DNA of 64,000 nucleotides from Poronia punctata (Eukaryota > Ascomycota > Sordariomycetes > Xylariales > Xylariaceae). The stretch covers positions 47,048 to 111,047 of the forward strand of contig MU401580.1 in assembly GCA_022579005.1 (NCBI GenBank), read 5' to 3'. Positions 53,272-64,000 of this stretch are shown piece by piece (the first letter of the stretch is position 1; each line of letters opens with the position of its first letter). The translations under genes and the position numbers were made by a program. Under the pieces are notes generated by a model. It saw only the letters and a list, made by a program, of their open reading frames with translations. It did no database searches and was not told the origin of the DNA.

Positions 53272-56062
53272 ATGGTAACGATTAGGGTGCTGGCGAGTTT
53301 ACTGGCCGTCACAGCAGCTGCGGCGGCGGTTGAAATCAGCGTTAGCTCCGTAGGAGGCAATGACACCGGTGGTTTTCACTATGGATTATTACATGAGGTT
53401 CGCAAAGAGATCCCTCCGGTTTGCCTATCAAACGAGAAGAAGTAAAGAATAGCCGGGCAATCGGCTTACAAGTGACTCAGGACATCAACAACTCCGGTGA
53501 CGGGGGTCTGTACGCCGAGCTGATCCGCAATCGAGCGTTTCAGTCTAGCGAGGCCTACCCGGCCACCCTGGACGCATGGTATCCGGTCAACGGGGCGCGA
53601 CTGTCTCTCAGAAATCTGAAGGAACCGTTGTCCAAGGCACTACCCACCTCGATGAACGTGGCGGCAACCCCTGGGGAACGAGGCCAACTCGGCTTCTACA
53701 ATGACGGTTACTGGGGGATGGATGTCAAAGCCCAGACGTACCGCGGATCTTTTTGGGTTCGCGGCGACTACCGCGGAGACTTCACCGCATCGCTACAGTC
53801 AAACCTGACAGGAGAGGAATTCGGAACCGCAAGAGTGAAGTCTCGGGCCCGGGCGAGTGAATGGGTTGAACACGAGTTCGTTCTAAAACCGTTCAAGAAT
53901 GCGCCCAACTCGAACAACACCTTTGCCATTACTTTTGACGCTGAGGTGAGCGGGCGCTTCCTCATGGCTACACCATATTATATATAGATATATATATATA
54001 CAGAGAGAGAGAGAGAGAGAGCTGACCTTGACTTACTCAGCATCTGAAATCGGAATCCCTCAACTTCAACCTCATCAGCCTCTTCCCGCCTACTTACAAA
54101 GGTCGCAGGAATGGAATGCGAGTCGACCTTGCCGAAGCTCTAGAACAGTTCCACCCGGTAAGCGCGTGTGTCTAATACTGTTTCCAGCCGAACTAATATC
54201 TATACAACAGACTCTTTTCCGTCTTCCTGGAGGAAACATGTTGGAAGGCCTGACAAACACATCGTACTGGGATTGGAAAGACTCCCTCGGGCCACTGAAG
54301 GATCGGCCGGGATTCTCGGGAGTCTGGGACTATCAACAGACTAATGGGCTGGGCTGTAAGTTACCGCCTCAACATGTCCTTACGACCTTGGACGGCTTTC
54401 AGCCACCTACACACCATCATCTTTGTCCCCGCTGACTTTGAAGCTTATTCATAGTGCTCGAATATCTGCAGTTCGCTGAAGATCTGGGTACGGAGCTAGG
54501 TGAGGCATACCTTGGCTGTTTCTTCATGACAAAAGCCAGCCCTAACTCGAGGTAGTGCTGGGAGTGTATGGTGGCCTATCTCTTAACGGAGATATCACGC
54601 CACGAGACGAGCTGCAACGGTTCATCGACGACGCCCTCGCCGAGATCGAATTCATCAGCGGACCGCCCGACTCGAAGTGGGGAAGGGTACGTGCTCGACT
54701 TGGTCACCCTAAGCCGTGGAAGCTGCAGTATGTCGAGATTGGAAACGAAGATTGGCTCGCTGGGGCGCCGGCGGGTTGGGAAACCTATAAGGATTACAGA
54801 TTCCCGATGTTTCTACAAGCCATCAACGAAGCTTGGTACGTAAAGCCCTTGCCGTTGTGGGACGCCAGGCTCCGATACTGACAACCACGGAAAGTGAGTT
54901 CTAGGCCTTCTGCGCCCCATCCTTTTGGCCGTCCGCCGGGGGCCGCCGGAGCCGTACGAATAGGATACACTGAGGCGCCGAAGCGGGCGGTACAAGATAC
55001 TCAACGTCTAACTATTTCCCATTCCCCCTCTAGATCCCGATATCCAGGTCATCGCTTCAGGCTCGGTATACGACGGGCACGATATCCCAACACCAGGCGC
55101 TGGAGACTACCATCTGTATGACGAGCCGGACACATGGATCACCGAGTTTGGTAAATTTGATAACGTCACGACGCCGCATATCATCGGCGAGATGGCCGCT
55201 ACTTTTCCAAACGGCGGGACAGGCTGGGACAGTGGGGTTCTAAGGCCATTTCCCTGGTACGTGGCGTGGCTTGTTGTGAAAGAGTAGGGTACCTCCTGTT
55301 GCTAACGCGACTCTTGTGCATAGGTGGGGTGGTGCAGTAGGTGAAGCGGTTGGTCTCGTTGATTACGAGCGAAATGCAGACCGTATGATCGGAACAGTAT
55401 ATGTATCGAACCCCTTCAAGACACTCGACGCACTCGACGCATGCTGACGTGGTTCCCGGTACACAGGCACCCATTCTACGCAATATGAACAGATGGCAGT
55501 GGTCAATCACCATGTTGCAATTTGCGGCAGACCCGGCGTTGACTACTCGCTCTACGAGCTGGTATGTCTGGGAGGTAAGTGGTACCAAGAAAATGTGTGA
55601 GGGTCCGAAGCCGTGTGGTCCGAAAAGCGGGACGTCGGGAGGGCCAGAAGATAGAAGTGGATGAGAAAAGCTGACGTTCGATATATATAGCTGATGGCGG
55701 CTCATCCGATAACCAAAACATTGCCGGCCGTTGGCGAGCTAGGTCCCCTTTATTATGTGGCGGGAACAAACGACAAAACTAGGGCGCACGTCTTCAAGGC
55801 AGCCGTCTATAACTCTACCGAGGGCGCGGACGTCCCAGTTCGTCTCACATTCGATGGGGTGGCCCCGGGGACCACAGCGGAACTGACAGTGCTATCGGGA
55901 CCTCGGGATCCTTATGCTTTCAATGACCCGTACGCCGGCAACAATGTGGTGAAGACGTCTCGGACGGTGGTCAAATCGGACAGGAAAGGCACGTTTTCGT
56001 TCAGTCTGCCCAACCTTAGCGTCGCTGTCCTGAACACAAGAGGGTGCCACAAAACTGGGTAG
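53272..56062 (+). CDS. Secreted GH51 alpha-L-arabinofuranosidase (10 exons)
   Basis: It cleaves terminal L-arabinofuranose from arabinan and arabinoxylan outside the cell. Exons: 53272-53397, 53481-53945, 54041-54157, 54211-54355, 54455-54499, 54556-54834, 55034-55256, 55324-55402, 55467-55574, 55691-56062; about 652 residues, normal for fungal GH51. The first 20 residues ([20 protein letters not shown]) are a signal peptide. Then come [64 protein letters not shown] and [20 protein letters not shown] holds the acid/base Glu (about 364), and [17 protein letters not shown] the nucleophile Glu (about 445). [39 protein letters not shown] and a beta-sandwich end complete it. All joins keep phase with canonical GT-AG introns except exon 6 to 7, which needs a twin intron (54835-55033). 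There is no stop or missing catalytic residue. Confidence 0.92.
53977..54022. repeat. TA and GA microsatellites inside GH51 intron 2
   Basis: A TA-rich run followed by about ten GA units occupies half of the 95-nt intron between exons 2 and 3, so allele length probably varies. Confidence 0.85.
54835..55033 (+). other. Candidate stwintron (twin intron, D1,2 type) in the GH51 gene
   Basis: As a simple intron (GTACGT at 54836 to CTCTAG at 55033) the join reads TG-A, an in-frame stop. In the nested model the external intron begins with G at 54835. An internal intron spans 54836-54894 (59 nt; GTACGT donor, TACTGAC branch site at 54876-54882, ends AAAG). Its removal joins G to TGAGTT, making a GTGAGTT donor. 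The external intron (CTAAC at 55008-55012, CTCTAG end) is then removed. The join becomes T-AT, giving [14 protein letters not shown] as in other GH51 enzymes. Confidence 0.78.
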
Positions 56063-56682: not shown

Positions 56683-57497
56683 TCACAGTTCGTTGTGTTC
56701 TTGAACGTCGTCAGTGTCCATCAATATTGTGCCTACAACTTCAGCCGCCTCGCCCACTTTCTCAGCAATCTTCTCAGCAGCGCCCGTTTCCGTCGCCGTC
56801 GCCGTCGCCGTCTCCGTCGCCGTTTCCATCCGTGGCTCGCTGTTTCCCGCCGTGGCTTTCGTTACGATAGACTCGGGCTTGGGCACACCCTTAATCCCTA
56901 TGAGTTCTGTCTCGAATACTGCTACAAGGTTAGATACTAGTCGTCTCCAGCTTGCCCGCCGTGATTCGGATGCTCGTACCAAGAGTAGAGCCGCCAGGTA
57001 TGGGGCCCACACCGCGGTCCCCATAGGCCAATTCCGGGGGGATAGTGAGAGTCCTATGCATACAGAACGATCAGCTAGTGCAAAGCGAGGGGTTACGGAT
57101 CACTGCAGTGTATAGGATCTAGAGCCGTGTGCGAGTAAATATATTTACTGACCTCTTCTCTCCAATGCACATGTCCAACAGTCCTTCGTCCCACCTAGAA
57201 TGCGGGGGTTAGTGGGATGAAGAGATGTCGATAGCGAAGGTCACAATCTTGACGTTACCCCTTAATCACTCGGCCTGCTCCGAGCAGGAAACCAAAAGGT
57301 GTGCCACGGTCGTAACTGGAGTCGAACTTATTGCCGTTAGACGCCAGAGTACCTCGATAATGAACCTCAATCGAGTCCCCTTTCTCGGTCTTGCGGTCGC
57401 ATTCCACTGGCAGGGTCACATCGATCTTGAGGTCGGAACCGAGGGCGTAGACAGCGGCAGACGCTACTAACGTCAGGGAGCAAAGAAGGCGGTGCAT
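56683..57497 (-). CDS. ER-lumenal FKBP-type peptidyl-prolyl isomerase with HNEL tail
   Basis: Catalyses proline cis-trans isomerisation and assists folding in the endoplasmic reticulum. Exons (minus strand): 57497-57259, 57194-57153, 57053-56980 and 56918-56683; all three introns are GT-AG and keep frame, giving about 196 residues. A signal peptide ([19 protein letters not shown]) precedes the FKBP domain: [69 protein letters not shown] and [12 protein letters not shown]. These include the Tyr, Phe, Trp and FETELI residues of the FK506/proline pocket. A Thr/Ala/Glu-rich tail ([13 protein letters not shown]) follows, and the protein ends EHNEL. HNEL is a KDEL-type retention signal known from Neurospora FKBP22, which also has an unusual C-terminal extension, so this is probably its orthologue. 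Confidence 0.93.
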
Positions 57498-57660
57498 ATT
57501 GAGTAGAATATATTACAAGAGCGTGTTGATACGGTGCTATATCTATCGTATTATGCGTTACCAAACAATGGCAAGGCCTGGCAGAGGGTAAGGGTGGTGG
57601 TGGTTACTGGCGATTGCTAAATACGTGCAGCTAGGTACGAGAAGACAGTAAAACCAAAGG
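57498..57660. promoter_or_regulatory. Upstream region of the FKBP gene
   Basis: A short normal-composition stretch between the FKBP start codon and the duplicated 160-bp sequence; it should hold the promoter. No specific element is recognised. Confidence 0.4.
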
Positions 57661-57900: not shown

Positions 57901-58274
57901 GGTCTATAACCTTTAGAATTCACCTGGCAGAGCCATAGCCTTTAAAATTCACCTGGCAGAGCCATGACCTTTTAAATTTACCTGCCATAGCCATAACCTT
58001 TTAAATTTACCTACCATAACCATAACCTTTAGAATTCACATGGCAGGACCATTACCTTTCGAAATGACCTGCCATGGCCATGACCTTTGGAAATGACCTA
58101 TATTAGCCCTGACCGTTACCTTTTGAATTAACCTGCCAGGGCCATTACTATTACCTTTTGAATTACCTGCCATGGCCATTACCTTTGGAATTCACCTGGC
58201 AAAGCCATAGCCTTTAGAATTCACCTAGCAGAGCCATAACCTTTTAAATTCACCTGGCAGAGCCATAACTTTTT
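57901..58274. repeat. 29-bp minisatellite, about 12 units
   Basis: Diverged units of the form TAACCTTTAGAATTCACCTG followed by GCAGAGCCA repeat with a 29-base period; two units carry short extra insertions (near 58110 and 58145). Many units contain a GGCC- or CCATGG-centred palindrome. The array lies between the two copies of the 160-bp duplication. Confidence 0.88.
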
Positions 58275-61200
58275 AAATGCCTGAGTTTACAAGAGATAAT
58301 TGTTTTTGTTTTTAATTACTATCTTGTTTTTATAAAAGAAATCCGTTTAAAAGAAGCTAGCTAATTTTTTTTTTTAAACAAAAATCTGCTATTGCTAAAA
58401 CATTTTATATTTTATAAAAAGGTTTTTTTAGTAAAGTAATTTAAGTTTTGTTTTTATAATTTAAAAGAAAATTTGCAGCTATATATTAAGCTATAAAGCT
58501 ATATAGCTATAATTACTAATAAAAACTTTTTTTTTAATTTTAATATTTTTGTTTTTTTATATATTTATAGTTATTTAATAGTATATTTGTTTATTTTATA
58601 AATAGTTTATTATATATTATTTTTTTGCTTTTATTTTTATTTTTTTATTTTAATATATTAGTATAAAAAAACTTATAAGCTAGTATTTTTAGTTTATAGT
58701 ATAATTATTTTATATTTTAAGTAATTGCTTTTTTAATTTTTTATTTTATGTTTGTTTTTATACTAGCTTGTTTTATAGTATTTTATTTTTTTATAAAAAA
58801 AGTTTGCTTTTATTTAAGCGTTTTATATAGCAAAAGTAATTTTTAAAGTTGTACTTATTATAAAGTAATAAAATAACTATATTTATTTTTTATTTTTTTT
58901 TATTTACTTTTATAGCAGCTTATAGTTTAATATTTATTATTTTTACTAAATTAATTATTAAGCAGTAGTTAGCTTTTTAAAAATTAAAAGCTATTTTTAA
59001 AATGTTATAAGTTAATATTAAAATTTTATTTAAATAGTTTAATTTATAAAGTTTATTTATATTATTTATAATTATGCTTTAATTATAATATTTATTATAT
59101 TATTTAGTTAATTTTGTTTTTATATTAATATTTAGTATATAAATGTTATGCGTATAGTACTTATTTGCTAAAAGTATATAAGTTATAAATATAGTTATTA
59201 GTAAGTAAAATAATATAATTATATACTTAATATTTATTTTATTTTTTAAGCTTAGGTTTTTTAATATTATAAGTTTTTTTTTATATATAATTATATTATT
59301 AATAAACTTGTAAATTATAATAAATTTTACTAATTAGCGTTTAAGTTTATTTTAATATTTTTAAAAAATAAAATATTTTAGTTTTTTAATTATTATAGCT
59401 TAGTTATAATTATTATTAAAGTATGCTTTATATGCTTTTAATTTATATATATTAACTATTTTACTATTAATATTTTTATTATAAATAATATTTTTTTTAA
59501 AAAAATATATAATATATAAGTATATGCTTATATAATTTAGCTTTATTTACGCTTTATTTAGTACACTACTAAGCTTATTGCTTATAATATAAAAGTTATT
59601 AGTATTAAATAGTTTTATTTTAATATTTTTTTATATTAGCTTAGTACTTTAGCGTTTTTTAGCTATTTATTTAGCTTTTTTATTTAGTAGTAAGTATTGT
59701 ATATAATATTATATATTAGCTATTATAGTATAAAAAGCTATTTTATTTTTGCTTTTTTTTATTAAGCAGTTAATTAGTAAAACTTAAATCTTAGTATTTT
59801 TTTTTTATTTGCTTGCTATTAAATTTATTTATTACGTAGTAAGCTAATAAAATTTAAGTAATTACTTTTTTATAAAATATTTATAAATATTAATAATATT
59901 TTATAAAATTTTTATTAATTTTAAAGTTTGCTTAGTAGCTTAAGTTTTTTTTATATATTTATAGTTACTTTATAATATAGTTAATTTATAAATGTTTATA
60001 ATATATTTTAGCTATTATTTTTTATTATTAATATGTTTATATTTTATTATATACTATACTATTAGTATATAGTATTATAAGCTGCTTAATAAAATAAAAG
60101 CTAATATAGTAAATATTACTAAACTAATAGCATAATTTTTTTATAGCTTTTTTAGCAAAGCAAATAATTATATAAGCTTTTTTACGTTTATACTAATATA
60201 TTAATAAGTTTTATTAAAAAATATAAAAGCTGCTATAATTATATATTTATTATTATAACTATTTTTTAAGCTTTAAATTATTTTTAAAGTACTAAGTATA
60301 AAAAAGTAGCTTTAGTTTTTTTAGCTTTTTATAAAGCTTTTAGTTTTTTTTTTTACTTTTTTCTTTTTTTATGCTTACTATTTATTTTATTTAATTAAAG
60401 CTATAGTATAAGTTTTTATTTTTACTATATACTTTATATTTAATTAAAATTTAAAGTATTTAAATTATTATATAGCTATAGTTTACTAGTTTTTTAAACT
60501 TTATGCTTTATTAATATAATATAAATATTAGTACTATATAGATTATAAATAATAGCTTTATAGCTAAAGTAATTTTATACGTATTATTAAACAAAATATA
60601 TATATATTATATTAAATATAAAAATTTATTTTAAAATAAGCACTGCTTACTTTTTATATTTTATTTTATTAAATAGTGCTGCTTATTAATTAGTATATTA
60701 AAAGTTTAGTATTTTTAAACTTTTTTATTATTTTTTATAATAATTATAAAAATTGCTTATATTGCTAAAACTTTAACTATTTTGCTAAGCTTTATAGTAT
60801 TTTTTAAGTAACTTTTAAAAAGCTTTTATATTAATAGTTATATAATTATTTATTATATTATATAAAGTTAATATAGTTATAAAGTAATATTAAATTTATA
60901 TAGTTTAAAATTAATAATGTTAATTAAATACTAAAATATTTTATATATATAAGCCTACTTTTTTTTAAAAACTTTTAAGTTTTTATTTATAGTATTAAAA
61001 TTAAATATTAATTAATTAGTTAAGTTATTTTTTTTATTGCTATTATTAGCTTTTTTTAATTAACTATGTTTTTTTTTAAACGTAATTTTTTTATTACTAA
61101 ATAATAATACTATAATAACGTTATTATTTATAAGTATACTTATATATAGTTATTTAATTTTATTAATTATATTTTTATTTTTTTTAACTTTTTGTTTTTT

Positions 61201-64000
61201 AATAGTTAGGCTTTATTTTTAAATATTTACTACGTTAGCTTTTAAATTTAAAAAAATAGCTAGCTATTATATTATAATAGTTAAAAAAAGTTTTAGCTTT
61301 TTATATACTTTTATATATTAAAAGTTATTAATTAAAGTAAATATTTTTTTAATATATTATTAATATAATAAACTTTGTTATTATAGTTGCAAAATAATAT
61401 TAATTATTATTTAGGTTTGCTTTTTAATTAAAGCGCTAATTTTTATAGCTAGTACGCAGTTTTTTAAGTATATAAGCAATATATAACTATTAATTTTATA
61501 AAAAATAATATAATATATTATATATATATAATTAAAAAAGTTTTTAATAAAAATTTAATTATGCTACTGCTTAAGCTTTAACTACTTTATTAAGTTTTAA
61601 GTATTTTATTTAAATAAGTTTTTTATTAAAATATTAAAGTTTATAATAAGTAATTTTATATATAAATATTTTATAAAATAGTAAGTTATAATGTTTAAGT
61701 TTTTATATATATAAAATAGCAAAAAAAACATATATAATAATAGTATATATATAAATAAATATAAAAATTAGCTTATATTTTAAAAGTTAGTATAGTTTTA
61801 ATTAGTTGCTTTTAAATATATTTATATAATAAATTTTTATTTATATAAAATAGTATAAGCTAATAAATTTTTTTAAAATAATTATATATAATAGTAAAAA
61901 AATGTAAATAATTAAAATAAATCCTTTACTACTTGCTAGCATTAGTTATTTTAAAATAAAAATATTTTATTTATAGTTTATATAAAAAAATATAGTATTA
62001 AGTAAGCAAAAAAATAAATATATTTATATATATAATAGTAAAATGTTTTATATAATATATTAATAATAGTAAAAAAGTAAAATAAAATAAGTATAAATAG
62101 TAATTTTTAATAATATGCAACTTTAAATTTTTATTTTAATAGTTATTTTTAGTAAAGTTAAAATAAGTTAGTAAATATAAATAAAATATTAATATTTTTA
62201 AGTATAATTAGCTTGTATACTTACTTATTTAGTTTTTTAGTATATAAATAATTACTTTTTTTTTTAAATATAAAAGTTAATATTTAATATAATATATATA
62301 TATATATATTTATAGTTAAAGTTAAGTATAAAAGTATATATTATAAAAAATATATATATATATTTATATAACTTTTTAAAGTATTAGTTTAAGCAAATAT
62401 ATATTTTAATTTAGTTATAGTTTTAATATAAGTATATATTTTTTTTTTTACTTATTAAATATATAATACTTAAAGTTTTTATTTTAGTTTTAGTTTATAT
62501 AATATATAGTTTTTTTAAAATATATAAATTAAATATACTATTAAACTTTTAAAGTTTATAGCTAATAATATATTTTAATTAAGCAAAATATATAAAAAAT
62601 AAATAAAGTATAAGTTATATATAAATTATTAATAACGTATATATTTTTAATTATTTATTATTATTTTTAAAGTAAAGTGCTATATAGTTATTATATTTTT
62701 TTAAGTTATAATTAAGTTATAAAAAAAAAAACTAATATTAAGTTTTTTTTTAAATTAGTAGTACTTTATATTTTTAAAGTTTTAGTAATATATTATTAAA
62801 AAAATATTATATAGCTATAATTATAAAATAAAATATAAGCTATAAAGTTTAATTAGTAAATATTTAGTATTTAGTTATTTATAAAGTTAAAATAATTTAA
62901 TATTATAATTTAGTATAAAACGTAAAATAATTAAGTAAAAGTAAAAATAGTAAAAAAATTATTATTATTATTAACTTAAAAAAACTATTATATAATTATT
63001 TTTACTTTTATTATAATAAGTTAAGTATATTACTAATATTAGTTTTAAACTTTTAAATATAAGCTTAAGCAACTTTGTTTTATTTTTTAATTTAAGTTTT
63101 ATTTTAAAGCATATTAACTTTTTTAGTTTAATATTTTAAAAAGTTTTTTAAATTAAGTTTTTTTTACTTGTTTATAGCTTTAAAGTTGTTATTTAGTAAT
63201 TTTAAAATAATATTTAGCTTATATTTAAAAAGCAAAGTTAACTTTATTTTATAAAAATTATTATTATAATAGTTTTTTTTTTTTTAATTATAATAACTTT
63301 TAAAATTACTTTTAGCTTTATATTAAGTTTTTTTTTAATAAGCTTTTTTTTTTTTAATTTTAATAAAATTTTTATTAGTTTAACTTTTTTTACTACTATT
63401 TTTAGTAGTAATATAGTAGCTATAGCGTTATAACTATATATTTTATATATAAGCTAAGTATATACTATTGTTAATAAAAAAATATAAGTAGCACTTTATA
63501 AAAGGTTTTAAATTAGTAGTAAGATTTATATATTAAATAAAACATTTGTTTACTTTTTTTTTAATAAAATTAATAAAAAAAGTATAAAAATATGCTTAAC
63601 TAATATATAAGTTATTAATAAACTAATAAATAGTGCTTATAATAGTTTTATTATAAAAGCTTATATATAGCTAAAAAATATAAAATAAATTTTAAATAAT
63701 GTTTTGCTTTATATTTTATATAACTTAACTTATTAATTAAATTATAGCAAGTTTATATAAGTTTTTATACTTATAACTAGTTTAAGTAGTATAGTTTATA
63801 ACTTAAATATATTATAAACTTTTAAGTATACTTTGTTATATTAAATAAAAATAAGTAATTTACTTTATTTAAATATTATTATAATAAAAAGATTTATAAT
63901 ATTAGGTTTTAAAATTAAAGCTATAGCAACTATAGCTATAAAGTAATAATTTTTACTAAATATAATAAAGTTTAATTATTTAAATTTTAAATACTTTTTA
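58275..64000. repeat. RIP-type AT-rich block 3 (continues beyond the window)
   Basis: Extreme AT composition with no coding frame, running to the window end. The first 160 bases are the mutated copy of 57661-57820, which marks an exact edge of the mutated zone. No terminus or less-decayed element was recognised further in. Confidence 0.85.

Follow-up and report, generated by a model that had tools for sequence, protein, structure and literature searches.

The GH51 gene and its protein

In the window analysed here (the whole 64-kb stretch of DNA), the forward strand carries a ten-exon gene for a GH51 alpha-L-arabinofuranosidase, whose features are collected in Table 1. When a 199-nt element between exons 6 and 7 is taken out in full, the gene model yields a stop-free protein of 652 aa, so that the rest of the enzyme is as intact as the first-pass annotation had claimed. 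Both the catalytic and the C-terminal GH51 domains of this protein exceed the curated Pfam cut-offs (PF22848, E 1.6e-27, 97.1 bits against a cut-off of 22.2; PF06964, E 4.8e-15, 56.6 bits against 27), and its residues 34-644 match the PDB entry of MgGH51 (6zps, E 4.1e-108). Glu364, in the motif YVEIGNED, is presumably the acid/base, and Glu445, in IIGEMAA, is taken to be the nucleophile. The remaining eight introns of the gene are 53-116 nt long; the AU content of the gene's other introns is 0.42-0.59 and that of its coding sequence 0.45. A search of the host's own genome for a further GH51 match returned only one distant locus (L028, 29% identity), which is too divergent to be used for a comparison of intron positions.

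The intact GH51 gene is set in an island of normal GC content, about 6-7 kb long, with AT-rich blocks on either side. Within positions 14001-50000 and 58001-64000 of the window such blocks are long, with a GC content of about 10-20%, and they show high TpA/ApT and low (CpA+TpG)/(ApC+GpT) ratios, as after repeat-induced point mutation. The gene is adjoined by a minus-strand open frame (57255-57512) that encodes an FKBP-type peptidyl-prolyl isomerase domain (PF00254, E 1.2e-12).

Table 1. Features of the GH51 locus, in window coordinates (a slash within a donor marks the point at which it is split)
Feature	Coordinates	Strand	Remarks
GH51 alpha-L-arabinofuranosidase gene	53272..56062	+	ten exons, 652 aa; gene model, Pfam, PDB
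Exons 1-5	53272-53397, 53481-53945, 54041-54157, 54211-54355, 54455-54499	+	gene model
Exons 6-10	54556-54834, 55034-55256, 55324-55402, 55467-55574, 55691-56062	+	gene model
Glu364 in YVEIGNED	54747..54749	+	exon upstream of the stwintron
[D1,2] stwintron (very probable)	54835..55033	+	199 nt in phase 1; interrupts the TAT codon of Tyr393
G1 of the split external donor	54835..54835	+	sequence, match to published model
Internal intron	54836..54894	+	59 nt; donor GTACGT, branch element ACTGAC, 9 nt, acceptor AAG
Rest of the external intron	54895..55033	+	donor G/TGAGT, branch element TCTAAC, 18 nt, acceptor TAG
Exon junction 54834/55034	54834..55034	+	yields the conserved 14-residue peptide; gene model, PDB and bacterial alignments
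Glu445 in IIGEMAA	55189..55191	+	exon downstream of the stwintron

Structure of the probable nested intron

The element at 54835-55033 is very probably a spliceosomal twin intron (stwintron) of the [D1,2] type, in which an internal intron sits between nucleotides 1 and 2 of the donor of an external intron. All the motifs from which the first-pass annotation had built this proposal were found in the sequence where it had placed them. As a U2 intron the internal one is complete, having a donor, a branch element and an HAG acceptor; in it, ATACTGAC precedes GGAAAG, which ends at 54894. The external part starts with TGAGTT at 54895 and continues with TCTAAC and then with CTAG, which ends at 55033. 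Taking out 54836-54894 joins G54835 to TGAGTT and thus restores the donor that had been predicted, G54835 and T54895GAGT together giving the standard GTGAGT. The resulting external intron is of 140 nt, counting G54835 and 54895-55033, and has a branch element (TCTAAC) and a TAG acceptor of its own, so that branch-like sites are indeed present in both parts.

This arrangement is also that of the published regular expression for such introns (model A, PMC9024468), which matches 54835-55033 exactly in all its motifs and distances and matches nowhere else on either strand of the 64-kb window. In fact, the nested arrangement is more than chance. When the 160-nt core was shuffled 20,000 times behind the fixed G and GTACGT, with dinucleotides kept, an internal acceptor of the published type together with a new donor arose in 39 shuffles, and a stricter form, defined after the element had been seen, in 2.

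Reading frame and conservation at the junction

Removal of 54836-55033 alone, as a simple GT-AG intron, keeps one G and produces an in-frame TGA at codon 393, as the first-pass annotation had stated. A stop is likewise met at codon 396 when only the internal intron is removed, and at codon 408 when the element is fully retained or when 54894-55033 alone is taken out. Alternative solutions were enumerated over the interval 54700-55120, allowing GT and GC as donors, AG as acceptor and intron lengths of 42-320 nt; two-step solutions could be nested or serial, serial pairs being taken in both orders, with a protein length within 15 aa, and were scored by our own simple sum over donor, branch and acceptor. 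Only four single introns keep the frame, and none of them retains the conserved peptide at the junction: all four end at the acceptor at 55047 and delete the conserved PDIQ. Among 1605 ordered two-step solutions, the proposed pair has the highest score (13, against 12 for the runner-up). The exact protein is obtained from four solutions. In all of them the donor is split from 54836, and two standard donors are a feature of the proposed one alone. Among the enumerated solutions, the [D1,2] stwintron is supported as the only one that gives a stop-free frame, a family-typical peptide and standard signals for both introns.

The protein alignments place the junction inside a conserved segment. The fungal enzyme MgGH51 aligns across it without a gap and has Phe at the position of the split codon. 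A scan of genomic contigs gave seven bacterial relatives, with 30-36% identity, and all seven are gapless over the 14-residue junction peptide, with Tyr at the split codon in six of them and His in one; the viral contigs that were scanned contained no relative. The description of this peptide as family-conserved thus stands for its pattern, and not for every residue. Full excision of the element restores this conserved coding sequence, and the single introns fail to do so.

The same architecture in other genes

The 45.05-Mb assembly of the host genome (573 contigs) was searched with a strict [D1,2] motif, consisting of GGTRHGT, 30-60 nt, RYTRAC, 4-20 nt and HAGTRAGT. It matches 20 times and its reversed control once; with the donor end permuted (HAGTTGAR) there are 4 matches, of which one coincides in part with a true match. 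A version with a TATGT donor end has 7 matches, against 0 in the control; these seven [D1,2]-like places, with external donor G/TATGT, are given as motif matches only, frames aside. The 19 strict matches other than the GH51 element lie in 18 loci. Their flanking frames were rebuilt by eye, guided in part by known features of the protein families, with external acceptors picked to fit the frame, and the rebuilt pieces were then tested by Pfam and PDB; two of these pieces (L021 and L024) also needed the removal of a nearby ordinary intron. Besides the GH51 locus, the 20 matches comprise 13 with protein support, 1 that rests on the frame and 5 that are unsupported.

In the 13 protein-supported cases a Pfam or PDB match crosses the rebuilt junction, one of them weakly. 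PDB alignments have no gap at the junction for saccharopine reductase (L021), NMD3 (L014), RRP9 (L027), PARP (L013), KRR1 (L024) and prolyl-tRNA synthetase (L012). Another gapless PDB alignment, that of valyl-tRNA synthetase (L025), reaches only 5 residues past the junction, and the Pfam match 13 past it. Pfam matches, as judged by their ranges, span the junction for an RdRP (L022), an ALO-type oxidase (L026), a GH18 chitinase (L010), an SDR (L016), a fungal transcription factor (L019) and, weakly and under the curated cut-off, fibrillarin (L023 at 2395). At the second match of this last locus (L023 at 1954) the frame fits and Pfam gives no match; the fibrillarin-like gene (L023:1954-2547) seems to hold two [D1,2] stwintrons a short way apart, both with an AAG external acceptor. 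Four other matches (L011, L015, L017 and L018) have no coding support, and L020 looks like plain coding sequence, presumably that of an ETF-ubiquinone oxidoreductase. The five matches without protein support and the one with a frame only mean that the motif by itself is no proof. If a simple intron started at the internal donor, one G would be retained and the frame displaced by one base in every supported locus.

A frame test based on codon usage gave output for 18 of the 20 matches; L010 and L019 are absent from it probably because a branch element was required at the external acceptor. At L016, L021 and L024 this test settled on wrong external acceptors; it favoured the frame of the simple intron at L013 and L027, later protein-supported as stwintrons, and gave a near tie at L012 and L014. 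At the GH51 locus it favoured the stwintron (14.1 against 5.6), with the acceptor picked by the test as the one best suiting a stwintron. The first-pass annotation had called stwintrons a rare class in filamentous ascomycetes, which does not apply to the host genome.

Alternative explanations

One rival to the stwintron is an ordinary intron of 198 nt (GTACGT...CTAG), the extra G upstream of it being due to a sequencing or assembly error or to a real one-base frameshift that makes the gene a pseudogene. Dropping one G of the GG at 54835-54836 does give the same junction from one ordinary intron, and TCTAAC, close to the 3' end, would serve such an intron as branch element. It is nonetheless very improbable, since the internal branch element, the AAG and the adjoining TGAGT would all have to be accidents of the kind found in 39 or 2 of the 20,000 shuffles, the 652-aa frame is otherwise intact, and the layout of a G plus a nested intron recurs in 13 other protein-supported genes, one of them weak. 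The intron would also be longer than any of the other eight of the gene.

A pair of ordinary introns placed one after the other, with a small exon between them, is another rival, and both runner-up solutions of the enumeration are of this kind: one removes 54836-54904 and 54931-55033 and adds 9 residues, and the other removes 54771-54904 and 54954-55033, with a GC donor, and lacks 5. These options are extremely improbable. The first puts ten residues in place of the Tyr and the second drops residues from a segment that is gapless in MgGH51 and in 7/7 bacterial relatives, and their donors (GTCCGC and GCGGGT/GTACGA) are poorer. The identical protein can also be obtained by dividing the element otherwise from the same internal donor, as in the other split-donor partitions among the four solutions, for example with a GAG acceptor at 54898 and external donor G/TTCTA. 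There is next to no likelihood of this, because GTTCTA is off consensus, AAG at 54894 is the first acceptor after the branch site, and GAG is described as rarely used in introns of filamentous fungi (PMC9024468). The remaining two partitions rebuild a GC external donor, and their internal introns have no branch element in the same scan.

Composition, folding and copies

The GH51 stwintron was compared within a set of 15 from the host genome, itself included. It is the longest of the 15 (199 nt, against 128-176) and the richest in GC, with an AU content of 0.407 against 0.491-0.644 in the other 14; this richness is partly local, in view of the AU values of the gene's other introns and coding sequence given above. 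The AAG at the 3' end of its internal intron, considered before as the weak point of the proposal, is an ordinary acceptor. In a sample of likely introns of the form GTAAGT...TGCTAAC...HAG (170 matches, against 5 in the control), the matches listed include 92 distinct introns, and by a hand count 19 of these have AAG as their nearest acceptor; three of the 19 are copies of one AT-rich repeat and three have a further acceptor downstream, so that the AAG sites truly used may be fewer. Yet none of the other 14 internal introns of the compared stwintrons ends in AAG, which does occur in two external introns.

The predicted RNA fold is nothing special (z +1.65; equalled or bettered by 195 of 200 shuffles) and, like the composition, counts against rather than for the stwintron reading. 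When the first 40 nt are set against the last 40, the longest pairing is of 6 nt, and in the minimum-energy fold the two ends are unpaired with each other. A search of the host genome for similar copies of the 199-nt element returned only itself at E <= 10, such counts being lower bounds, and the published NTIRE sequences were absent from the element. The description as a sister (propagating) stwintron does not fit it, neither a similar genome copy nor a terminal complementary NTIRE-10 pair having been found.

The published 5' NTIRE element with its donor, allowing one mismatch at most, has 65 matches in the host genome. Twenty of these loci were examined; 14 are AT-rich (GC 0.12-0.20) and 6 have a GC content of 0.40-0.49, and none of the 20 matches the published model even with the external spacing widened to 200. 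The 14-mer GTAAGTATAAAAAC occurs 30 times among the matches listed in the NTIRE search, and 14 of 15 such loci examined are AT-rich (e.g., L031, L033, L035 and L038); this 14-mer is a decoy when searching for the NTIRE element of stwintrons.

Proposed splicing pathway and significance

On the principle of intron definition, the internal intron would be the first to be removed by the spliceosome. This removal would bring G54835 beside TGAGT and create the donor GTGAGT, and a second round would then remove the external intron, joining 54834 to 55034 and completing the codon of Tyr393. The [A2,3] route that has been described elsewhere as an alternative is closed, since A is the first base of the downstream exon. 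Should a missplice go in one step from the internal donor to the external acceptor, the G would be retained, and the resulting TGA at codon 393 would lie upstream of three more exon junctions, cost Glu445 and leave no active enzyme. It is conceivable, though improbable, that the stwintron acts as a regulated switch in which the ratio of two-step to one-step splicing sets the amount of arabinofuranosidase; if so, the GC-rich external core and the distant branch site would tune this ratio.

These observations are of practical significance because a gene finder that allows simple introns only would break or truncate the GH51 enzyme, with loss of the presumed catalytic nucleophile. The 13 other genes are open to the same misreading, several of them house-keeping genes (those of NMD3, KRR1, RRP9, fibrillarin, two tRNA synthetases and saccharopine reductase), and stwintron-aware annotation is therefore needed for the host fungus.

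Comparison with known stwintrons

More than 1500 stwintrons of the [D1,2] type are reported in Hypoxylaceae (PMC9024468) and 288 sequence-similar ones in 14 Xylariales (PMC12403724). The GH51 stwintron at most adds one more case to a kind of intron that is known but uncommon; the host genome appears to contain many of them. The string 'arabino' is absent from the main texts of six papers on stwintrons, and supplementary tables may already list this position.

The closest likeness is to the unique [D1,2] stwintrons of Hypoxylaceae (Fekete et al., 2022; PMC9024468). They share with the GH51 element the donor split between G1 and T2, the five motifs and the distances of model A, and phase 1, found here, is their commonest phase (about 45%). 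Like them, it showed no similar copy when the genome was searched, lies seamlessly in coding sequence and has no G past its 3' end, which leaves no [A2,3] alternative. It differs in composition, the 117 published stwintrons having an AU content of 0.52-0.70 against 0.407 here, and in the distance from external branch element to acceptor, which is of 18 nt here and mostly of 6 (50/81) in the unique ones. In a class described as AU-rich, the GH51 case is thus a GC-rich addition whose external intron is long.

Another example is that of the lipS stwintron of Aspergillus nidulans (AN7524), whose splicing intermediate has been amplified and sequenced (Flipphi et al., 2017; PMC5639578). It is also of phase 1 and of the [D1,2] type, with external donor G/UGAGU and one AAG acceptor; it lies in another gene, is 99 nt long and has the AAG at its external intron, whereas here it is at the internal one.

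Finally, the sister [D1,2] stwintrons with NTIRE-10 (Fekete et al., 2025; PMC12403724) differ from the GH51 stwintron, for which no second genome copy was found and which has none of the published NTIRE sequences and no unusually folded RNA. They are of the same type, and they are reported to missplice by pairing the internal donor with the external acceptor so that one G stays behind, which is the kind predicted for the GH51 gene. Their external branch-to-acceptor distance in Hypoxylaceae is 19 nt, so that the spacing of 18 nt found here resembles that of the young sister stwintrons more than that of the old unique ones.
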